From Oscillospiraceae bacterium (GTDB taxonomy: Bacteria; Bacillota; Clostridia; Oscillospirales; Ruminococcaceae): a stretch of DNA of 64,000 bases. Where the stretch lies: positions 62,001-126,000 of the forward strand of contig JAFRTG010000007.1 in assembly GCA_017427265.1 (NCBI GenBank). The letters run 5' to 3'. Made by a program: the position numbers and the translations under genes. Of this stretch, positions 1,285-50,772 are shown piece after piece; the first letter of the stretch is position 1; the number at the start of each line of letters is the position of its first letter. Below the pieces are notes generated by a model, which saw only the letters and a program-made list of their open reading frames with translations, did no database searches and was not told the origin of the DNA.

Positions 1285-3402
1285 TCAGAGCTGATTGATC
1301 AGACGTGCAATATACTTCAGAATTCTATCGGCGTCACCGTCATCCAGATTACCGGAACCGTTGACATCGCCGTTCAGCTTGCCCTGATCCTTGACGTTCG
1401 CGGTGCTGTCACCGGAAACGAAGCGCAGGATCATAACGCAGTCACCGACATCGACCAGACCGTCGAGGTTTGCGTCGCCGCGCATCGTGACTTTCGGCTC
1501 CGGCTTTGTCGTCGTGGTCGTCGTGGTTGTGGTCGTCGTCGTGCTCGTAGAAGTGGTCGAGGTGCTGGTAGAAGTGGTCGTTGTCGAAGTAGAGGTAGAA
1601 GTTGTGGTTGTCTTGGAGGTGGTTGTAACCGGATTCACATTTGAACCGCCGCTCAGAACTGCACTCTCCATCGTAGCAGTTTCCGGCCACCAGACCTGGA
1701 AGCTGATCTCATTGACACCGGCCGGAATCTCAAACTCAACCGTGATGATGCCGTTCTGCGGTGTTGCAGACCATCTCTTCTCGCCGTCGCTGTTATAGAA
1801 GATACCGCCGTTTGTCTCGGTATCGTTCGAGTTTGTCTTCATAGTGACGGTCAGCTTTTCAGCGCCGGCAACATTGATCTTGTATTCCTTAGCGCTGATC
1901 TTTGTCACATCGGCATCGCGTGTACCGCTGGGGTTGGGACCGGGGTTCGTCTTGGTTGTGGTAATACCGGGCTGCGGATCGACATACGGAGTGGTTGTTG
2001 TACCCGGCTGCGGGATATCGCTCTTGGTGTAGATCTTCGATACGCCCGGAATGCTGGTTGCAATCGAACCGGTCTTGTAGAAGTGATACAGACCTGCTGC
2101 TGCACCGACGAAGCCGGCGTTGTAGTCAACTGCTACCTCGTTGCCGGTGTAATCGGAACGCTTGTCATAATAAGTACCGTTTGCATCCATCGGACCGCCG
2201 CAGAGTGCGCCGACGAGCAGGTACTGGTTCGGCGTGCCGTCATTGCCCTCAGATGCATCCGCGTTCGGAGAAGCGGCTCTGTGGTGCGGATTCTTCGAGG
2301 AATTATCCTTGAAGCCGACGACGAGGCAGTGGGTCTGACCGTTTGCATACGCCTTGTCACCGGTGATATACTGCATCTGGCCTTTTGCCCATGCAGCATC
2401 GCCCTTCTGGTATTTTGCTGCTACAAGCTGGCAGAACTGACCGGTCGTATTGTATCTTGCGCTGCCCCATTTCCAGCTGTCAGCTGCGAAGCAGTAGCCG
2501 TCGCCCTTGAGGCTGCCGAGGAATCCGGTGCTGCCCCAGTCGCCGGTGATCTCACCCTTCAGAATGCCGGCGCCGAGCTGAACGCTCTCCCAGGAGTGGA
2601 CAGAATAGGACTGTCCTGCCTTGGACAAATCATTTTTGTAGCTGTCATCCTTTGTGGCAAGATAGAGCCAGCCGGCTGCCCAGTTCAGCTCATCATCGGA
2701 ACCGGTCCAGTGACCGTCATAGAAGTCGCAGGCATAGTAGCCGGTATCGCGCTTGGAGAAGTTATAAAGTGCCTTTGCATACTTGAGGTCATCCGGATTG
2801 CCGAAGTTTACGTAGTTCGCAGCAAGTGCAGCTGCGTATTCTGCCGTAATATTTGCAGCACCGCCGGTTGTCCACAGCATACGGCCTCTGTTGCCCTGCT
2901 GCTCCGGTGCGCCCCAGTACATATGATCCTGACCGCCCTCACCCTTTTCAATGAGAACCTTCTGGACATTGTCGCCGCTCATAACTGTCGCGTCACGGAA
3001 GAACTTGCAGAACTTGTCGGTAATCACCTTCAGGTGCTCAGCCTGACCTGTTTCCTCAAATGCATCCTTGAACTCATAGTAAGCCCAGCCGAGTGTCGAA
3101 GCTGCATAGCCCTGCGGCTGACCGAACATCACATGGTCACCGGCGTCATGAAAACCGCCCGGCACTTCGTCAGTTGTATGGCAGTTGCCGCGCCACTCAA
3201 TTCCGCACAGTGATCCGACATCATTGCCGCACATGTTCGCATCGTAGAGATACAGACTGTACTGCAGGAGCTTTGCGTAGTTGTCGCCGTCCGCAGCACT
3301 TGCCTGCATCGGGACGGATGCGCCGGAGACTGCCAGTGCGCCGAGAGACATCACGGCGCTGGTGCAGACTGCACCGACTCGCTTCATAAAATGTGTGTTC
3401 AT
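1285..3402 (-). CDS. Cellulosomal GH9 cellulase with accessory module and dockerin
   Basis: 705 residues from the ATG at 3402, chosen because GAGAGGGG sits 7-9 nt upstream and a signal peptide (MNTHFMKR..., cleavage near ASA-A) follows directly; an upstream in-frame ATG at 3438 lacks a site. Order: signal peptide 1-36; GH9 catalytic domain about 38-456, with the DAGD motif at 86-89 (catalytic base), an HHRA motif and the NEVAVDYNAG acid region; Pro/Thr linker; beta-sandwich module about 494-590, probably carbohydrate binding; a Thr/Ser-only linker about 593-634; dockerin about 640-705 with two calcium loops (DANLDGLVDVGD and DVNGSGNLDDGD). Expected activity is hydrolysis of beta-1,4-glucan, docked to a cell-surface cohesin. 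A small GTCGG/CCGAC hairpin (3458-3471) lies in the leader. Confidence 0.95.
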   Translation of the reverse strand: MNTHFMKRVGAVCTSAVMSLGALAVSGASVPMQASAADGDNYAKLLQYSLYLYDANMCGNDVGSLCGIEWRGNCHTTDEVPGGFHDAGDHVMFGQPQGYAASTLGWAYYEFKDAFEETGQAEHLKVITDKFCKFFRDATVMSGDNVQKVLIEKGEGGQDHMYWGAPEQQGNRGRMLWTTGGAANITAEYAAALAANYVNFGNPDDLKYAKALYNFSKRDTGYYACDFYDGHWTGSDDELNWAAGWLYLATKDDSYKNDLSKAGQSYSVHSWESVQLGAGILKGEITGDWGSTGFLGSLKGDGYCFAADSWKWGSARYNTTGQFCQLVAAKYQKGDAAWAKGQMQYITGDKAYANGQTHCLVVGFKDNSSKNPHHRAASPNADASEGNDGTPNQYLLVGALCGGPMDANGTYYDKRSDYTGNEVAVDYNAGFVGAAAGLYHFYKTGSIATSIPGVSKIYTKSDIPQPGTTTTPYVDPQPGITTTKTNPGPNPSGTRDADVTKISAKEYKINVAGAEKLTVTMKTNSNDTETNGGIFYNSDGEKRWSATPQNGIITVEFEIPAGVNEISFQVWWPETATMESAVLSGGSNVNPVTTTSKTTTTSTSTSTTTTSTSTSTTSTSTTTTTTTTTTTTKPEPKVTMRGDANLDGLVDVGDCVMILRFVSGDSTANVKDQGKLNGDVNGSGNLDDGDADRILKYIARLINQL
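1500..1625 (-). repeat. Low-complexity Thr/Ser linker tract
   Basis: Degenerate ACN/TCN codons produce an imperfect trinucleotide repeat coding for the Thr/Ser linker between the accessory module and the dockerin. Synonymous codons vary, which limits slippage. Confidence 0.8.
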
Positions 3403-3794: not shown

Positions 3795-3823
3795 TTGACA
3801 AAATCAGCAGAACATGCTATACT
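3795..3823 (+). promoter_or_regulatory. Sigma-A promoter of the MoxR-DUF58-cohesin operon
   Basis: TTGACA (3795-3800), 17-nt spacer, TATACT (3818-3823), 43 nt before the MoxR start. Confidence 0.8.
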
Positions 3824-3866
3824 ACTTTATGTTCGTGTCTATCCCTGTCACGGAAGGAGTTTTCAT

Positions 3867-4898
3867 ATGTCTGCACCAATTTCCGTTTCTGAAATTCCGG
3901 CACTTGCAAAATCTGTTACAGACGCAGCCGCTGCTGTCGTCCGCGGCGCTGAAGGTACTATTAAATTATTGACCGCAGCACTTCTCTGCGGCGGACATGT
4001 TCTGCTTGAAGATCTGCCCGGTACGGGAAAAACAACGCTTGTCAAAGCGATCGCCAAACTGACCGGCTGTTCCGATAAGCGTATCCAGTGCACACCGGAT
4101 CTGATGCCGGCTGACCTGACCGGCTTTGAAATGCTCGTGCAGGAGCCTGACGGCAGCCGCAAAATGCAGTTCCGGAAAGGGCCTGTTTTTACAAATCTGC
4201 TGCTTGCCGACGAGATCAACCGCATGGCTCCGCGCTCACAGGCAGGACTCCTTGAGTGCATGGCGGAGTATCAGGTGACGGCCGGCGGCGTCCGCTATGA
4301 CCTGCCGAAGCCGTTCTTCGTTCTTGCAACGCAGAATCCGATTGAGCTGCAGGGAACCTTCCCCCTTCCGGAAGCCCAGCTTGACCGCTTTTTCATGTGT
4401 CTGCACCTCGGCACACCCGAACGCGGCGAGGAACGCAGAATTCTGACCGAACGGCAGACTTCCGATCCGCTGGATGCACTGCAGCCCGTCACCGATCCGG
4501 AAACGCTCTGCGCTGCTCAGGAAGCCGTCCGCACGGTCAATGCATCTGAAAGCGTGCTGGATTATCTGCTTGATCTTGCCGACGCGACACGCTCGCACAA
4601 GCAGGTTCAGTACGGTCTGAGCACCCGCGGTGCGCTCGCCCTGCGTCACGCTGCGCAGGCCTTTGCTGCAATGGAAGGCCGCGATTACCTGCTGCCGGAT
4701 GACGTGAAGGCCGTGTTTCCGTCTGTCTGCGCCCACCGTCTCAAGATGGCAGGCGGTCTTTTCTCGGACAGACAGGCAGCTGAAAAAGTCGTGGAGGAAA
4801 TTCTCGCCGGTGTCGGGGTACGCAAGCATACAGACGCAAAGGCCGATACCGTCAAAAGCGTGGATGAAATCCTCGGCGGCGGGGTACCCAAAGCATGA
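3867..4898 (+). CDS. MoxR-family AAA+ ATPase
   Basis: 343 residues. Start at 3867 follows GGAAGGAG with 7-nt spacing; an in-frame ATG at 3795 falls inside the promoter and is rejected. Walker A (EDLPGTGKTT) is at about 48-57, Walker B is LLLADEINR, and the sensor region ATQNPIELQGTFPLPEAQLD is typical of MoxR proteins. These ATPases act as chaperone-like activators and are often encoded beside a DUF58 protein. The stop overlaps the next start (ATGA), implying translational coupling. Here the operon ends in a cohesin lipoprotein, so an envelope or cellulosome-related client is possible, but that is inference. Confidence 0.95.
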   Translation: MSAPISVSEIPALAKSVTDAAAAVVRGAEGTIKLLTAALLCGGHVLLEDLPGTGKTTLVKAIAKLTGCSDKRIQCTPDLMPADLTGFEMLVQEPDGSRKMQFRKGPVFTNLLLADEINRMAPRSQAGLLECMAEYQVTAGGVRYDLPKPFFVLATQNPIELQGTFPLPEAQLDRFFMCLHLGTPERGEERRILTERQTSDPLDALQPVTDPETLCAAQEAVRTVNASESVLDYLLDLADATRSHKQVQYGLSTRGALALRHAAQAFAAMEGRDYLLPDDVKAVFPSVCAHRLKMAGGLFSDRQAAEKVVEEILAGVGVRKHTDAKADTVKSVDEILGGGVPKA

Positions 4899-6010
4899 TT
4901 CTCGCGGCGCTGCTGGTGTGCATCGTGCTGGGACTGTTCCTGCCGCAGTATCTCATCACCAGATTCGGCTACCGCAATCTGACGTATTCACTCGCCTTTT
5001 CTGAGGATGAAGTTACCGAAGGCGACACGGTCACACTGATCGAAACAATCTCGAATAACAAGCTGCTGCCGCTTCCGTGGGTTAAGGCTGATCTGACGAC
5101 GGACGCTTCACTGCTGTTCGCAACCGATCAGACCGCAGTCAGCGGAGACGCCCGTTTCATTTACAGCTATTTCTGCCTGTTTCCCCGCCGGAAGGTCGAA
5201 CGGCGCTGGCGCGTTACCTGCACAAAGCGCGGATGCTTCACGGTATCCCACGCGGTCATTGTACTCAGCGATTTGTTCGGCAATGCAGAATGCTCCCGCC
5301 TGTTCGCGGATATTTCCGCCGCGCTGACTGTGCTGCCGGCCGTACGCCGCTCAGATGCGGCGCAGGCGTTCCCGCTGCAGCTCACCGGCGAGGTCATCCG
5401 CAACCGCACGCTCATTCCAGACCGTTTTGCCGTCTGCGGTATCCGGCCTTATACCGACGGCGATTCCGTGCGAGATGTATGCTGGAGTGCCACAGCCAGA
5501 GCCGATACACCGATGGTCCGGCAGTATCAAGAAACAGCCGTACCGAGTCTGACCGTGCTGCTCAATCTCGAAACCAGAGAAACCGACCGCGATCAGCTGA
5601 CCGATAAGGCCGCGTTCGAGCAGGCTGTCCGTGTCTGCGCTGCTGTGCTCGGAGAGGCTGCCAGACAGCATGTCCCTGTCCGCCTCTGTGCCAATACCGT
5701 CATCGACACGCAGCCGGCGGAAACGCCGTTCCGTTCAGGCGATCCGGCTCTGTACGGAATGCTGCGTCTGCTCGCAGCGCTGCCTGATACCATTTCATTC
5801 CGGTGCGAGACCATGCTCGATTATGCCTGTACAAAGGAGAGCATTTCATCTGTCATTCTGATTACACCGCAGCCGACCGCTGCAATTCTGCGCTATGCTG
5901 ATGCAGAGCCCCGGCTGACCGTAATCTCCGCCCGGCCGCTCCGCGATTCTGAGATCCGGCGGAACGTCCGGCATATTTCAATTTATCAGGAAAGGATACC
6001 GAAAACATGA
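4895..6010 (+). CDS. DUF58 domain protein, MoxR partner
   Basis: 371 residues. The N-terminus has one membrane segment (about 2-18), then a beta-rich extracellular-type region and the DUF58 signature around IRPYTDGDSVRDVCWSATAR, followed by a vWA-like region with LTVLLNLE. DUF58 proteins pair with MoxR ATPases, and some have a vWA metal site. The start overlaps the MoxR stop by four nucleotides and its own stop overlaps the next gene in the same way. The usual additional partners (vWA/BatA-like proteins, transglutaminase) are absent and replaced by a cohesin lipoprotein. The family is certain; its biochemical role is not. Confidence 0.9.
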   Translation: MILAALLVCIVLGLFLPQYLITRFGYRNLTYSLAFSEDEVTEGDTVTLIETISNNKLLPLPWVKADLTTDASLLFATDQTAVSGDARFIYSYFCLFPRRKVERRWRVTCTKRGCFTVSHAVIVLSDLFGNAECSRLFADISAALTVLPAVRRSDAAQAFPLQLTGEVIRNRTLIPDRFAVCGIRPYTDGDSVRDVCWSATARADTPMVRQYQETAVPSLTVLLNLETRETDRDQLTDKAAFEQAVRVCAAVLGEAARQHVPVRLCANTVIDTQPAETPFRSGDPALYGMLRLLAALPDTISFRCETMLDYACTKESISSVILITPQPTAAILRYADAEPRLTVISARPLRDSEIRRNVRHISIYQERIPKT

Positions 6011-6813
6011 AACACTCGAAAAGAATTGCAATCTCTGCGGCGCTGATGCTCGCCGTTTTCTGCTCCGGCTGTACCGTCAGCAATTCCGGACAGTCGCTTC
6101 CGGTCGGTGAAACAACAACCTCGGCACAGTCAGCCGCTCCGGATGCACCTGCCGACTCCGCTGCAGAAACATCCGCGGTACAGGACGACGGCAACGCTGC
6201 AGCAGACCCCGCGCAGAGCGATACCCCTGCTCCCGCTCCCGCCGACCCTGCGGCACAGACACCTGCTGCAACCGATGCAGCTGCACAGCAAGGCGGTCAG
6301 CAGAACGCACAGCCGGACGCACAGCAGAACGCGGCACCCGGTGCCCAGACCTTCGATGACGGCAGCGGAAAATTCGTTGTCGGCAGCGGCCTGACCGTCG
6401 GTGTCGGCACGGTTCATGCAAGAGCCGGCCAGAAGGCTGTTCCGGTTACCTTCCGTATCTGGAACAACCCCGGCTTCTCAATGGGCGGATTCAAGATTAC
6501 CTATGACCCGGTTCTGGTTCCGCTGCTGGCCGGCACCAATGACATTGATGCTAAATTCGATCTCAGCCCGGCAATCAGCGGCGCAACAGCATACGGCGCA
6601 GTCAATTTCAATACGCGCGCAGTTGCAGTCGGAATTTTCAACCCTGAAAATCTGACCGCTGAGGGCGCACTTTTCACGGTATATTTCGATATTCCGGAGA
6701 ATGCGCAGCCCGGCACGGCCTACTCGCTCAAAGTCGAAGCAGATTCGATCACTGACGCACAGGCCAATATGCTCGATTTCACGAATCTTGACGGCGAAAT
6801 CCGCATTGACTGA
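6007..6813 (+). CDS. Lipoprotein with C-terminal cohesin domain
   Basis: 268 residues. Signal peptide with lipobox FCSGC; lipidated Cys at 22. Residues about 25-115 form an Ala/Pro/Gln/Asp-rich linker. Residues about 118-268 form a cohesin: LTVGVGTVHARAGQKAVPV, MGGFKITYDP, GAVNFN, GALFTVYFDIP and LDGEIRID follow the nine-strand jelly-roll pattern of cellulosomal cohesins. It should sit on the outer face of the membrane and bind a dockerin. Coupled by ATGA to the DUF58 gene and followed by a terminator. Dockerin proteins in this window (1285, 32671, 48535) are candidate partners. Cohesin identity is pattern-based; the exact cohesin type is not resolved. Confidence 0.85.
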   Translation: MKHSKRIAISAALMLAVFCSGCTVSNSGQSLPVGETTTSAQSAAPDAPADSAAETSAVQDDGNAAADPAQSDTPAPAPADPAAQTPAATDAAAQQGGQQNAQPDAQQNAAPGAQTFDDGSGKFVVGSGLTVGVGTVHARAGQKAVPVTFRIWNNPGFSMGGFKITYDPVLVPLLAGTNDIDAKFDLSPAISGATAYGAVNFNTRAVAVGIFNPENLTAEGALFTVYFDIPENAQPGTAYSLKVEADSITDAQANMLDFTNLDGEIRID

Positions 6814-6842
6814 TCTGCGGCTTTCTGACCTCGCATCAAACA

Positions 6843-6886
6843 AAAACCGCCTGACTGTTTCCCAATGCAGTCAGGCGGTTTTCTTT
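6843..6886 (+). terminator. Rho-independent terminator of the MoxR operon
   Basis: A perfect 15-bp stem (6843-6857 with 6868-6882) with a 10-nt loop, followed by a T-rich tail. Confidence 0.9.
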
Positions 6887-7080: not shown

Positions 7081-8301
7081 ATGCCGCAAACCATCCGTCT
7101 GATTCCGCTCCTACTGCTTATGCTGCTGCTGAGCGCCTGCTCATTCCTGCCGCAGCCTGAGCCGCTCAATGAAGGACAAACTGCCGCACAGCTGCATCTC
7201 CTGCCGGAACCGGAATCCGACGCAGAACGTCCGCTCATCGCTGCATGGCTCCCGTATTTCAGCGTGGAAGCGCTGCTCGCGCAGGAGGACGAACAACGCT
7301 GTACCGAGGCCGTGCGCAGTTATCTGCTGCGACTGAAGGATTTTGGCATCAATGCGGTTTTTGTGCATATCTGCGCGTTCGGGGAAAGCTGCTGCCCGTC
7401 CGATTATTATCCGCAGATGCCTGGCGTACACGGACACGACGGCATGAAGATCTTTTCGGATATCTGCAAGGAGACCGGTATCGCGCTGCACGCATGGATC
7501 AATCCGCTCCGGCTGCAGACTGTCGAATATATGGATGCCCAAACCGGCGATGCCCGCCTCTGCACATGGTACCGCGATCCGGCATTGAGAGCGGAAAAGC
7601 TCTCGCTCTGGGAAAAACGCTGCTATCTCAACCCTGCTTCGGAATCAACGGCAGAATTTCTCTGCGGCTTTCTGACAGAGCTCATCACGCGCTATCACCC
7701 AAGCGGGATTCATATTGACGATTATTTCTATCCGACAACAGAACCCGCCTTCGATGCAGAAGCCTTTGCAGCATCCGATGCAGAAAACCTTGCCGCGTGG
7801 CGAACAGGCAATATCACAGCACTGCTGCAGACGCTGTATCAGGCGGTCAAGGCTGCAGATCCGGATACGGTGTTCTCGGTCAGTCCGCAGGGCAGTCTGC
7901 AGTACAATGCAGATAACCTCTACGCCGATGTCTCCGGCTGGTGCCGAAGCGGAAACTGCTGCGATCTCATCATTCCGCAGCTGTATTTCGGATACCGGCA
8001 CGAGACCTGTCCGTTTCCGAAGCTGCTGCGCGAATGGGTCTCACTGCCGCGGGCAGCATCCGTCCGGATAGCCGTCGGACTCGGCATATACAAATACGGT
8101 GAGGAGGATGAACGTGCAGGCACAGGAAAGGATGAATGGTGCACAACTGACGGGCTTCCCGCTGCGCAGGCCGCCGATGTGCTCTCGGAGCCGGCACTGA
8201 GCGGCGCTGTCTTTTATCATGCTGACGCGCTGCTTGAACTGCCGCAGACAGAGTCCGAAGCACTGAAGCAAGCAATCCATGCGATCTTCCCGGCTGAATA
8301 A
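7081..8301 (+). CDS. Lipoprotein with GHL10-type (DUF187) glycoside-hydrolase-like domain
   Basis: 406 residues. Lipobox LLSAC places the lipidated Cys at 20. From about residue 50 the sequence follows the GHL10/DUF187 pattern: IAAWLPYFSVEAL, the FGINAVFVHICAFGES strand, IALHAWINPLR, YLNPAS, then YHPSGIHIDDYFYPT, which carries the acidic residues at the end of a TIM-barrel strand. Family members act on bacterial cell wall or uncharacterised glycans at the surface. Start supported by GGAAAGG 12 nt upstream; a TATAAT at 7042-7047 lacks a good -35. Single-gene unit, converging with the acetyltransferase gene at a shared terminator. Confidence 0.85.
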   Translation: MPQTIRLIPLLLLMLLLSACSFLPQPEPLNEGQTAAQLHLLPEPESDAERPLIAAWLPYFSVEALLAQEDEQRCTEAVRSYLLRLKDFGINAVFVHICAFGESCCPSDYYPQMPGVHGHDGMKIFSDICKETGIALHAWINPLRLQTVEYMDAQTGDARLCTWYRDPALRAEKLSLWEKRCYLNPASESTAEFLCGFLTELITRYHPSGIHIDDYFYPTTEPAFDAEAFAASDAENLAAWRTGNITALLQTLYQAVKAADPDTVFSVSPQGSLQYNADNLYADVSGWCRSGNCCDLIIPQLYFGYRHETCPFPKLLREWVSLPRAASVRIAVGLGIYKYGEEDERAGTGKDEWCTTDGLPAAQAADVLSEPALSGAVFYHADALLELPQTESEALKQAIHAIFPAE

Positions 8302-32610: not shown

Positions 32611-32670
32611 AGGATCGTGTCATTTGACTCTGAAATGAACACAATACAATTTCTAACAGGAGGATATGAA

Positions 32671-34323
32671 ATGAAACTTCAAACAAGACTTGCGTCCGCA
32701 ATTCTGTCGGCATCTATGCTGTTTTCCGCAGCATTTGCCGTCACACCGATGCAGGCCGATGCGGCAACCTACAAGTCGCCGGTCTCGCTGAGCACGGTGC
32801 AGAACCAGTGGACAACCCGCATCAACGCTGAGAAAGCGAAGTTCCAGCACGGCAAGTACTGGACCGGCGGCAACGAGGACAGCTGCTCCAATACGCCCTG
32901 CGATCACTTCGGCGGTCCGAGATACTGCTGCCACACATCCTATTTCGCTCCGATCGACGATCAGCACCAGAGACAGCACACCGGCTACGATGAGGATGCA
33001 AGAGGCAACATGTATTCTTCTCTTTCCATGTGCTGCGGCTTTGCAAGAAAGCTCGCAAAGGACATTTTTGAGACCAACTTCTATGTCCGCTATTACATCA
33101 ACAACGGAAAGATCAACTACTTTGCCTCCGGCCAGCGCGACTATGAGCCGCAGATCGGCGACCAGGTCCGTCTGTTCTCCTACTCTCACGGTGAACAGGG
33201 TCACAGCATTTTCATCACAGGCATTTCCGGCAACAACATCACCTTTGCAGAGTGCAACGGCGACCTGAAAACCTGCCAGATTCTCTGGGATCAGACAAAA
33301 TACGTTGACAATTACACCAACAACAGAATGATTACTGTCACAAAATCCTATCTGAGACAGAGAGCTGTCTTTGTTGAGCGCCCGATTCTGCAGGGTGACT
33401 TCAACCTCAACGGCAAGATCGACCTGCAGGATGTCACTGCCTTCAAGGCAACCATGGTTGACAAGGGCACGCTCGTCAGCGGTACTGATTACAATGACTA
33501 CGATGTCAACGGCAGCCGTTATGTCAATGACAATGACTACTATGCAATCCAGCAGTATGCAAACAAGTCTGCTGCAGACGGCTATATCTACCGCTCCGGC
33601 GATTATATCAACGGAACCTCCTGCTACCACAACGAAGTGAAGGATAAGTACTTCCTTTACAATGACGGCATTTATCAGCAGGTTGACTTCTTCAAAGCAT
33701 CGCTGGTTGCACCGTTCCGCAGAGATTATCCGAGCCTGATCGTTCCGGAAACTGTCAAGATGCCTTCCGGCAGAACCCTGACCGTTACTGAGATCGGTGA
33801 AAGAGATCACTCTGTGCGCAGCAGCTCGCTCCTCGGCGAACTGTCCGCAATCACAATCCCTGAGACCGCTACGATCATCAACAAGTATGCTTTCAACAGC
33901 GGACGCAGCTCCAAGCTGCAGAGCGTCACATTCAGCGGATCTGATCCGAAGATGACCACGATCGACGAAGGCGCTTTCTTCTACTGCGAAAAGCTGAACG
34001 CACTCTTCCTCGATAAGCTGAACAGACTTACCACGATCGGCGATGAAGCATTCCCGGATAAGATCAGCTACATCTCCTTCCCGTATGCAAACTCCGGCTC
34101 TTCGCAGAGCACGCCGGCACTCGGTTCGGCCCACGGCGCATTCAGCCCGTATCAGACGACCGCAGTCACTGTCTCTCTGAAGAACCAGACCTCCGGCTGG
34201 AGAAACGTCTATCTGAAGGATAAGGACGTAACGCTTTGGAGAAACAATCTGCTCAAGTTCTCGGTCACCGGCAAAACCAGACTCTACACCCAGAGCGGCA
34301 CGCTGCTGAAGACCTACAACTGA
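32671..34323 (+). CDS. Secreted cysteine-peptidase-like protein with dockerin and leucine-rich repeats
   Basis: 550 residues from the ATG at 32671 (CAGGAGG 8-9 nt upstream). Signal peptide 1-30 (cleavage near ADA-A). Residues about 35-235 look like an NlpC/P60- or CHAP-type fold: adjacent Cys 121/122 in MCCGFARKL, His178 in GEQGHSIFITGI, then an Asn/Glu stretch NITFAECNGD. Residues about 243-305 form a dockerin (GDFNLNGKIDLQDV and YDVNGSRYVNDNDYYAI). Residues about 370-490 are BspA-like leucine-rich repeats (ITIPETATIINKYAF, MTTIDEGAFFYC, LTTIGDEAF). It would be a cell-wall- or peptide-cleaving component attached to a cohesin. The catalytic assignment is tentative. Confidence 0.82.
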   Translation: MKLQTRLASAILSASMLFSAAFAVTPMQADAATYKSPVSLSTVQNQWTTRINAEKAKFQHGKYWTGGNEDSCSNTPCDHFGGPRYCCHTSYFAPIDDQHQRQHTGYDEDARGNMYSSLSMCCGFARKLAKDIFETNFYVRYYINNGKINYFASGQRDYEPQIGDQVRLFSYSHGEQGHSIFITGISGNNITFAECNGDLKTCQILWDQTKYVDNYTNNRMITVTKSYLRQRAVFVERPILQGDFNLNGKIDLQDVTAFKATMVDKGTLVSGTDYNDYDVNGSRYVNDNDYYAIQQYANKSAADGYIYRSGDYINGTSCYHNEVKDKYFLYNDGIYQQVDFFKASLVAPFRRDYPSLIVPETVKMPSGRTLTVTEIGERDHSVRSSSLLGELSAITIPETATIINKYAFNSGRSSKLQSVTFSGSDPKMTTIDEGAFFYCEKLNALFLDKLNRLTTIGDEAFPDKISYISFPYANSGSSQSTPALGSAHGAFSPYQTTAVTVSLKNQTSGWRNVYLKDKDVTLWRNNLLKFSVTGKTRLYTQSGTLLKTYN

Positions 34324-48534: not shown

Positions 48535-50772
48535 TCACTGCCGGATTTCCACACCGCCCCATTCAACAACTGAAAAGCCGGTTCTTTCAAAGGTTTCCAG
48601 CTGCTGCGGTTCAATCTCCACAGCATTATCAAGCGGAACATACGCCATAAAGATGCGGCACTCACTGTCCGGGTTCGGCGTGATCGTCAGCTTGGCAGAA
48701 TTCGTATAGGTCTCGCCCTGGAAGGAAATCAGATTGTATGCATGATGCTCCATCAGCGGCAGCCAGTATACGATAAACTCATTCATCTCCTGCTCGGTCA
48801 GCCCCATTTCAGTGAGCTTTTCCTTGAGGAAGCGCTCGGTATCAGCGCCTGCCACGCAGAAGCCCTTGGAAAAATCAAAGTGTGTGCGGCAGTTCACGGC
48901 ATCCCAGAAAAGATATTTGTGATGACTGCCGTCTGCTTTGTTCAGGAGCGTGCCGTCCGGATATGCCGTCACATCCCAGCCGTTGTCATACTTCGGATAG
49001 GTTGTGTTCAGCTCAGCTTCTGTCAGTTCCAGCTCAACATGAACATCGGTTTCCTGTTCAGGATAGAGATAGATGACCGGCTTGGCGGGCACTGCTTCAA
49101 AATAGATCGTTCTATAGCCATTCGAGTCTACTGTTTTGATCCAGCCGTACTGTCCGTTGTATTCTGTAAACAGCCAATCGTTTTTGCCGTTCTGCATGCC
49201 TTTCTCAGCCATGCGTGTATCCGCAGGAATGGAAGCAACTGCTTCATAGCTTTCATCCGGGCCAAGATAAAGCTTCAGACCGTCCTCCCTGACATAGAAC
49301 GGAAAATCGTAGTCATAACGCTCATCCGGTTCAACATAGTCACGGACTGTTTGCGCCGGCAATGCCTTTTTCATCAGACTGAGGTCAGCGGCATTCAGCT
49401 GATTATCGCAGAAAAAGTCTCCTGCTTTCCAGTCTGCAAGCGCTGTACCGGGGACTGCAAGCAGCCAGTTTTTCAGTAGTTCCACATCGGCAGCATCGAA
49501 TTTGCCGTCACCGTTGACATCACCTCTGGAGGTGGATTTCAGCCAGAACTTTACATCCGCTGCGCCGTTGCCGAAGGTTGTCACAGTCATACTGCCTTCC
49601 GGAATAATACTTCCGCCATAATATCCGGGACGCAGATCATCACAGATAAACGAATATCCGCCCGGCAGCGTTTGCCCCTCCAATCCAAATGAAAACCCTG
49701 CCGAACCGAGGGATTTTCCAAGATTGTTATCAACGATGCAAGGATTTGTCTCCAGCATGAAGATCGGCCCTGTGGACACGCGGCCGTCGGTAAAATCAGT
49801 CCAAATATAAGTTTGATCGGCAGCTGTGAGCGCAATCAGCTCACCTGTATGAAAGTCAATCAGATTCGCTCTCATCTGCCCTGACAGAAGAATTGTCTGA
49901 GCGTTATCCAGAACAGCACAGTCCGCAGTCAACGTGCAGGTTGTCGGCTCATCCGGATCCGGTCTGGCGCTGGACGTGCGTGTCCATGAGATTTTCTCGG
50001 TTCCATCCTTCACAGCCTGATAGACATACATGATATCGACAGAACCGTCATCATACATATCCCGTGCCTGCATCGTACAGTCAGATGTCAGGAGATACTT
50101 TATGTTTTCATATTTGTTATTGCTGTCAGGCTCCCATTTGTCTCCGAACTGGTCAACCGTCATCGTGCAGAACACAAGATAGTTATCCTTGACTGAAACC
50201 TCACCGTTGTCCCGGAGATAATCGCTGAATTCTGCTTTGCCGTCCGGCAGCCAGCTGAAAATATCTGTTTCCGTGATGTTCATGTCATCCTGGGCTGAGA
50301 AGGAATACCGGGCAAGGGCATGACCGAATTCCAGGTCCGGATCCGGTTCTTCTGCCCACGAGTCAGTAACCACGATATCAAAATCGCAAGCCTTCTGGGG
50401 ATCAAAGACGGCAATATCGTAGTAATATGCGCTGTTTTCCGAACCGAAATTCGTTTTCCGCAGTCTTTTGACCGATTTGTCGGTTATTTGCGTTTCATAG
50501 CGCAGCATACCCTGCGGCTGACCGTCCGGCACAGGCTCGCGCTTAAAAACAGATACAACACAGACGAGACCGTTGTCAATATGCGTTGCGCCGTAGGTGT
50601 TGCGGAATTCTACGGCAGAATCGAAATCCTTCGGAATCCAGTCCGGAAGCGCTGCGACTGCGCCTTCTGCAATCACAGCGGAGGGTTTGCGCAAAGCGGA
50701 ATCACTGAAAGAAAACGGCGTAACTGCGAATGTTGCTGCGAAAAATGCAGCGGATAGTTTCATAAACTTCAT
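48535..50772 (-). CDS. Secreted dockerin protein with SH3-like and unknown C-terminal domain
   Basis: 745 residues. Signal peptide about 1-24. Residues about 30-420 are a large unrecognised beta-rich region. A dockerin follows (about 428-490): RGDVNGDGKFDAADVELLKNW and GDFFCDNQLNAADLSLMKKAL. Next a bacterial SH3-like domain (about 500-565; LKLYLGPDESYEAVASIPADTRM, WLFTEYNGQYGWIK). The end, starting KPVIYLYPEQETDVHVELELT, is a conserved domain met in various secreted proteins whose function I do not know. The dockerin lies in the middle, not at the end. GGAAGGTG lies upstream of the ATG. Confidence 0.85.
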   Translation of the reverse strand: MKFMKLSAAFFAATFAVTPFSFSDSALRKPSAVIAEGAVAALPDWIPKDFDSAVEFRNTYGATHIDNGLVCVVSVFKREPVPDGQPQGMLRYETQITDKSVKRLRKTNFGSENSAYYYDIAVFDPQKACDFDIVVTDSWAEEPDPDLEFGHALARYSFSAQDDMNITETDIFSWLPDGKAEFSDYLRDNGEVSVKDNYLVFCTMTVDQFGDKWEPDSNNKYENIKYLLTSDCTMQARDMYDDGSVDIMYVYQAVKDGTEKISWTRTSSARPDPDEPTTCTLTADCAVLDNAQTILLSGQMRANLIDFHTGELIALTAADQTYIWTDFTDGRVSTGPIFMLETNPCIVDNNLGKSLGSAGFSFGLEGQTLPGGYSFICDDLRPGYYGGSIIPEGSMTVTTFGNGAADVKFWLKSTSRGDVNGDGKFDAADVELLKNWLLAVPGTALADWKAGDFFCDNQLNAADLSLMKKALPAQTVRDYVEPDERYDYDFPFYVREDGLKLYLGPDESYEAVASIPADTRMAEKGMQNGKNDWLFTEYNGQYGWIKTVDSNGYRTIYFEAVPAKPVIYLYPEQETDVHVELELTEAELNTTYPKYDNGWDVTAYPDGTLLNKADGSHHKYLFWDAVNCRTHFDFSKGFCVAGADTERFLKEKLTEMGLTEQEMNEFIVYWLPLMEHHAYNLISFQGETYTNSAKLTITPNPDSECRIFMAYVPLDNAVEIEPQQLETFERTGFSVVEWGGVEIRQ

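Follow-up and report, generated by a model that had tools for sequence, protein, structure and literature searches.

We analyzed a window of 64,000 nucleotides from an Oscillospiraceae bacterium (assembly GCA_017427265.1, contig JAFRTG010000007.1, positions 62,001 to 126,000; G000:C3:62001-126000 in our numbering), whose genome spans 3.82 Mb and is 99.3% complete, and focused on three adjacent genes that encode a MoxR-family ATPase, a DUF58 protein and a putative lipoprotein ending in a cohesin domain. As a previous sequence-only reading had proposed, these genes form a single unit with one promoter and one terminator, made up of the following features.

3795..3823, plus strand: strong promoter of the extended -10, sigma-70 type, TTGACA-17-TGC-TATACT (11 of 12 positions matching, with a TG ahead of the second hexamer)
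3867..4898, plus strand: MoxR-family AAA+ ATPase, 343 residues (Pfam AAA_3, AAA_lid_2)
4895..6010, plus strand: DUF58 protein, 371 residues (Pfam DUF58; AlphaFold2 model)
6007..6813, plus strand: predicted lipoprotein, 268 residues, with a signal peptide, Cys22, a 110-residue low-complexity linker and a C-terminal cohesin (130-267)
6394..6807 (G000:C3:68394-68807), plus strand: cohesin domain (PF00963 genome search, 26 bits, above the cut-off)
6843..6882, plus strand: terminator-like hairpin of the intrinsic type, 16 pairs

ATGA overlaps join MoxR to DUF58 at 4895 and DUF58 to the cohesin gene at 6007. A hairpin scan returned 7 sites in 6 kb for 5.7 expected, and the stem at 6843-6882 is the longest by far. 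MoxR starts at the ATG at 3867, which is preceded by GGAAGGAG; the TTG at 3795, given as the start in the list of open reading frames (ORFs), coincides with the -35 box.

The ATPase matches Pfam AAA_3 (8.6e-56) and AAA_lid_2 (1.6e-23) and contains GTGKT and LLLADE, which we take to be its Walker A and Walker B motifs. The adjacent gene encodes a protein matching DUF58 (4.3e-11), and the two thus constitute a MoxR-DUF58 pair. In the AlphaFold2 model of the latter (mean predicted local distance difference test score, pLDDT, of 84), a single N-terminal helix (2-24) is followed by a beta-sandwich (29-147) and an alpha/beta domain (180-360). DxSxS is the metal-binding motif of vWA-like domains; it is absent from the window DUF58 protein, whose first strand reads LTVLLNLETRETDRD. 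The beta-sandwich resembles many such folds, cohesins among them, with template modelling (TM) scores near 0.5, and this likeness appears to be generic. MoxR has no signal peptide, and the single membrane helix of DUF58 is followed by positive residues, so that both proteins would face the cytoplasm and the cohesin the outside. With such a topology, the pair could contact an external lipoprotein only via a membrane partner.

The C-terminal domain of the lipoprotein is a true cohesin by fold. In a search against cohesin profiles, the protein encoded from 6007 matches Pfam Cohesin (PF00963) over residues 130-267 with 24.8 bits for a cut-off of 24.1, a margin of 0.7 bits, and no block of its AlphaFold cohesin domain, counted from residue 131 on, falls below a pLDDT of 91. 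The best 50 Foldseek matches listed are all, judged by title, cohesins or cohesin-holding scaffoldin fragments; the first is 3ul4 (OlpA of C. thermocellum; E 1.5e-10, TM 0.84 by target length) and the second 4n2o. Pfam Cohesin is matched at E≤0.01 by 13 of the 21 relatives of the lipoprotein, two other families matching only one member each. An annotation artefact arising from the weak Pfam score was considered and rejected, since the fold, the family profile and conservation are concordant. The cohesin announced by the sequence-only reading is thus borne out. Elsewhere in this genome, the cohesins of a multi-cohesin scaffoldin (L139:9508-13764, G000:C42) score in the genome search and not in a whole-protein hmmscan at E≤1.

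One could wonder whether this domain retains no more than the cohesin fold, having lost dockerin binding and acting for the MoxR-DUF58 system as an external sensor or as a lid that binds a ligand. The weak Pfam score would fit, as would the eight of 21 relatives lacking a Pfam match at E≤0.01, the 21-36% identity of the lipoproteins while DUF58 keeps 43-60%, and the non-cellulosomal cohesins (2xdh, 2jh2, 2vo8) among the fold matches. However, the domain was found only in dockerin-rich genomes, the solved sequences that its profile matches most closely belong to anchors that bind dockerins, and it persists without MoxR-DUF58 in two relatives described below (G022 and G020); we therefore regard a sensor or lid as unlikely.

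Searched alone, the window domain retrieved two CohG structures as its top sequence matches (4wkz and 4n2o; E 0.0018 and 0.0021). With a profile of the 21 relatives, the ScaE (4iu2, 8ajy, 2zf9) and CohG (4wkz, 4n2o) chains came out best (E 1.6e-10 to 9.7e-10), and cohesins besides these five reached only 4.5e-5 or worse. Both are proteins of R. flavefaciens: like the window protein, ScaE presents a single cohesin at the cell envelope, and CohG (ScaG) is a small standalone one-cohesin protein, which has reportedly been proposed as a scaffoldin shuttle. Concerning their partners, PMC5301203 states that ScaE binds group-4 and group-2 dockerins, including the X-dockerins of ScaB and CttA, that CohG binds weakly some of the dockerins bound by ScaE, and that GH9 dockerins belong to group 1, which ScaE does not bind. 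As the profile lies nearest to these two proteins, for which mostly group-4 and X-module dockerins are known as partners, dockerins of the scaffoldin type are a better guess for the partner than GH9 dockerins. By this analogy, the dockerins encoded in the window at 1285, 32671 and 48535, which the sequence-only reading had suggested testing, would not be the likeliest partners of the predicted dock.

As for the lipoprotein nature of the protein, also claimed by the sequence-only reading, the N terminus is of the lipoprotein type, and Cys22 is invariant across all 21 aligned relatives, in rows whose start codons were chosen by a relaxed lipobox rule that leans towards it, the Cys column being independent of the strict box. 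A PROSITE-like lipobox is present in 14 of the 21 relatives; that of the window copy, FCSGC, is weak, with a Cys at -3, and is not PROSITE-like. Lipidation would be predicted at Cys22. No C-terminal sortase signal was found on the window protein, which ends in the cohesin.

Between the cysteine and the cohesin, the 21 relatives carry a linker of 16-113 residues, made for 75-94% of S, T, A, P, G, Q, N, D, E or K. In seven of them it does not exceed 45 residues and would span no more than some 16 nm when stretched out. Since Gram-positive walls are thicker than this, the cohesin would lie in the inner wall zone in these species. Such short linkers would suit a cohesin that captures its partners, or hands them over, close to the membrane rather than one displayed on the cell surface.

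The gene order was then compared in 30 genomes of the genus, whose members are fibre-digesting gut bacteria, and among which the metagenome-assembled genomes (MAGs) are 58-99% complete. DUF58, with 43-100% identity to the window copy, is present in 22 of them, each time with MoxR adjoining, and 20 of the 30 show the order MoxR, DUF58, cohesin lipoprotein. The unit is thus not a single odd copy, a possibility that we rejected. The overlap of 4 nucleotides between DUF58 and the cohesin gene is found in 10 of the 20 loci, window included. As the DUF58 proteins of the relatives are only 43-60% identical and the lipoproteins 21-36%, the three-gene order must be old, and the pairing of MoxR-DUF58 with the cohesin is real. 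Where relatives bear a name, they are MAGs that carry the label Ruminococcus, Oscillospiraceae or Clostridia and originate from rumen, omasum, horse faeces, pig and roe deer; neither R. flavefaciens nor R. albus is among the names of 49 loci. All 30 genomes hold Dockerin_1 and Cohesin matches (dockerins at least 60-149 per genome, cohesins 3-25), which provides a strong cellulosome context for the operon cohesin.

The sequence-only reading had further suggested a possible role of the ATPase pair in maturing, placing or loading the cohesin, or in controlling how the cellulosome attaches to the membrane. Supporting this idea, the lipoprotein is present in 22 of the 22 genomes with MoxR-DUF58 versus 3 of the 8 without (Fisher p 0.0004, with no correction for phylogeny or for gaps in the MAGs). 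The exceptions deserve attention. In G022 (96% complete, 30 contigs), a metallophosphoesterase and GH9 are followed by the cohesin lipoprotein, MoxR-DUF58 missing between; we found no DUF58 match in this genome and only two MoxRs with 44-45% identity, the level of second copies in other genomes of the genus. In G020 (84% complete), the lipoprotein is present and the pair was not found. The pair and the lipoprotein lie on different contigs in G017 and G024, with other sequence behind DUF58; the lipoprotein of G017, which has no Pfam match, was assigned by the family profile (E 7e-44). In G029, 123 nucleotides separate the cohesin from the beginning of its contig, and a different contig ends in GH9, so that the absence of the pair could stem from a gap in the assembly. 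Neither the pair nor the lipoprotein was found in G001, G012, G014, G025 and G026 (58-88% complete), a two-cohesin dockerin protein of G012 being left out of the lipoprotein count. The loss looks real in G001, where GHL10 and a serine-acetyltransferase-like gene lie inside a contig of 310 kb and GHL10 has no cohesin next to it. Altogether, the cohesin can exist without MoxR-DUF58, whereas within the genus the pair was not seen without the cohesin. Since one relative, G022, keeps the cohesin and lacks the pair, MoxR-DUF58 is probably not required for the lipoprotein.

These data bear directly on the hypothesis that MoxR-DUF58 is a dedicated chaperone machine, which would mature the cohesin lipoprotein or load its dockerin partner. 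The order kept in 20 of 30 genomes, the co-occurrence given above and the joint absence of pair and cohesin from G001 would fit such a machine. Moreover, PMC8430577 describes MoxR proteins as assembly chaperones and reports a bifidobacterial MoxR-DUF58 operon in which an adhesion protein located outside the cell, FN3, is encoded too. Against such a role stand G022 and the less complete G020, which retain the cohesin and lack the pair, the unlinked genes of G017 and G024, and the inferred location of MoxR and DUF58 on the cytoplasmic side, the cohesin being outside. Furthermore, all 52 MoxR-DUF58 loci retrieved outside the genus have the pair and no cohesin behind it within the fetched stretch, with flanks down to 1.5 kb, some ORFs cut and some genomes possibly in both sets. 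We consider a dedicated chaperone improbable; the suggestion of the sequence-only reading is supported only in part.

Another explanation would be shared transcription only, the cohesin gene benefiting from a convenient constitutive promoter with no functional tie to MoxR-DUF58. The pattern TTGACA-17-TGN-TATACT or TATAAT precedes MoxR by 57-129 nucleotides in 19 of the 20 loci examined (two further loci being cut by contig ends). In G022, TTGACA-17-TGN-TATACT stands directly before the cohesin gene, 76 nucleotides upstream, and near matches precede this gene in G024 and G020. However, the order has been kept although DUF58 is only 43-60% identical, the 4-nucleotide overlap is frequent, and the co-occurrence is 22 of 22. 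Shared transcription alone is in our opinion very unlikely.

What lies behind DUF58 outside the genus could shed light on the origin of the arrangement. Outside the genus, DUF58 is mostly followed by a gene for a multi-helix membrane protein: by a simple rule, 44 of the 52 outside loci have, behind DUF58, an ORF with at least two long hydrophobic runs; in the remaining eight there is no such ORF, or it is cut. Among the matches listed for 396 genomes of the family, no cohesin-domain match lies on a contig with a DUF58 match, and among the best six candidates per genome in 394 genomes of the order, a whole-length match (E≤1e-12) was found only in the window's own genome. Pfam holds no family for the two outgroup third-gene proteins examined. 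A profile of ten outgroup third-gene proteins finds a relative in 26 of the 30 genus genomes, and wherever DUF58 is present too, this relative lies on another contig. Four genomes have no such relative: G028, where the pair is present, and three that are devoid of MoxR-DUF58 as well (G012, G020 and G022); it thus occurs in 21 of 22 genomes with the pair versus 5 of 8 without (p 0.048). It therefore seems that the cohesin took the third place of the operon and that the membrane protein would still belong to the MoxR-DUF58 system. In the window genome, this relative is a stand-alone protein of 517 residues (L195:6271-7824, G000:C16), with a DUF4129 match below the cut-off (15.2 vs 24.8 bits).

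Cellulosome assembly is otherwise thought of as passive self-assembly. A bolder proposal is that MoxR-DUF58 and the displaced membrane protein compose a dedicated, ATP-using envelope machine of this genus, which would control the assembly or the release of scaffoldins on the lipid-tethered cohesin. The strict co-occurrence fits such a proposal, and G022 could have a substitute. We find it quite unlikely; if true, it would introduce an energy-dependent step in cellulosome assembly.

The explanation that we favour, and to which we give about an even chance of being right, is that the third gene specifies a single, anchoring-type cohesin tethered to the membrane, a dock or shuttle for dockerin-bearing scaffoldins that is co-expressed with MoxR-DUF58 and not dependent on it. 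It draws on the cohesin fold, the invariant cysteine, the conserved order and promoter, and the cohesin kept after loss of the pair. In the ancestor of the genus, the cohesin gene would have come behind MoxR-DUF58, at the place of the membrane protein of the relatives, and would since then have been co-transcribed, and often translationally coupled, with the pair. After export, the protein would be lipidated at Cys22, and the flexible linker would hold the cohesin near the outer face of the membrane. There it could capture dockerin-bearing scaffoldins or other cellulosomal proteins leaving the cell, the capture site being an inner anchor or a point of hand-over to the sortase-type anchors of the wall. 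MoxR-DUF58 would be an envelope assembly or activation pair, which may help the cohesin and would not be required for it.

Several observations weigh against a tethered, independent anchoring cohesin. The top Foldseek match is OlpA of C. thermocellum and not ScaE; the tree puts the ScaE and CohG fragments of R. flavefaciens apart from all the cohesins of the genus, on long branches. In this poorly resolved cohesin tree, the operon cohesins are not recovered as a clade, and although a single clade of the 25 lipoprotein cohesins is not rejected (approximately unbiased test, p-AU 0.57), such non-rejection does not demonstrate it. A PROSITE-like lipobox is missing in the window copy and in seven of the 21 relatives overall. 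Finally, the lipoprotein accompanies MoxR-DUF58 in every one of 22 genomes, which points to a linkage that goes beyond chance.

In Ruminococcus, the known anchor of cellulosomes is ScaE, which is linked by sortase. A conserved cohesin on a lipid tether would provide a further station close to the membrane, and bears on how scaffoldins travel from the secretion channel to the wall. Moreover, its steady position behind an ATPase pair, combined with natural genomes in which the pair is missing or unlinked, makes the role of the ATPase directly testable. According to PMC5301203, ScaE is covalently attached to the wall via LPXTG, in contrast with the lipoprotein-type N terminus and the lack of a sortase tail of the window protein. 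The window genome also encodes other single-cohesin proteins (L140:2428-5791 and L139:6035-7018; G000:C5 and C42). Of these single-cohesin proteins, 3 of 4, L139:6035-7018 included, have a sortase-like tail (TG-D, a hydrophobic run, KKKD or RKKH), and canonical LPXTG was not found in them. According to PMC4081043, a strain of R. flavefaciens has between one and three proteins in which a single cohesin is joined to a region of unknown function; these could include relatives.

A parallel can be drawn with the operons of the MoxR-DUF58-transglutaminase (TgpA-like) type, which have the same MoxR followed by DUF58. There, however, the third protein is a membrane transglutaminase and not a lipoprotein cohesin. 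This usual arrangement is seen in a second set of the same genome (L138:4141-8867, G000:C18), with AAA_3, a DUF58 match below the cut-off and a membrane transglutaminase (Transglut_core 1.5e-20). The bifidobacterial PFNA operon (pkb2, fn3, aaa-atp, duf58, tgm) likewise groups a MoxR-type ATPase and DUF58 with a gene whose product carries an extracellular domain, as outlined in PMC8430577, but its surface domain is FN3 and it adds a kinase and a transglutaminase. In listings from an open-licence library and in passages of PMC4035507, PMC2721979 and PMC9112005, we found neither a description of a lipid-anchored cohesin in a MoxR-DUF58 operon nor a paper joining Ruminococcus, cohesin and MoxR.

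The unit is flanked in the window by two genes that recur in the relatives.

1285..3402, minus strand: GH9 enzyme with a C-terminal dockerin, divergent to the operon, conserved neighbour (Pfam)
7081..8301, plus strand: GHL10 lipoprotein-like gene past the terminator, frequent neighbour outside the unit (Pfam GHL10 3.3e-27)

The GH9 protein matches Glyco_hydro_9 (1.1e-73), with a Dockerin_1 score of 20.0 bits, below the cut-off of 22.9. In the operon loci of the relatives, where some contigs end earlier, GH9 is divergent to MoxR in 11 of 19 and GHL10 lies behind the cohesin gene in 9 of 19. Two further putative dockerin proteins are encoded in the window, at 32617-34323 and 48535-50772.

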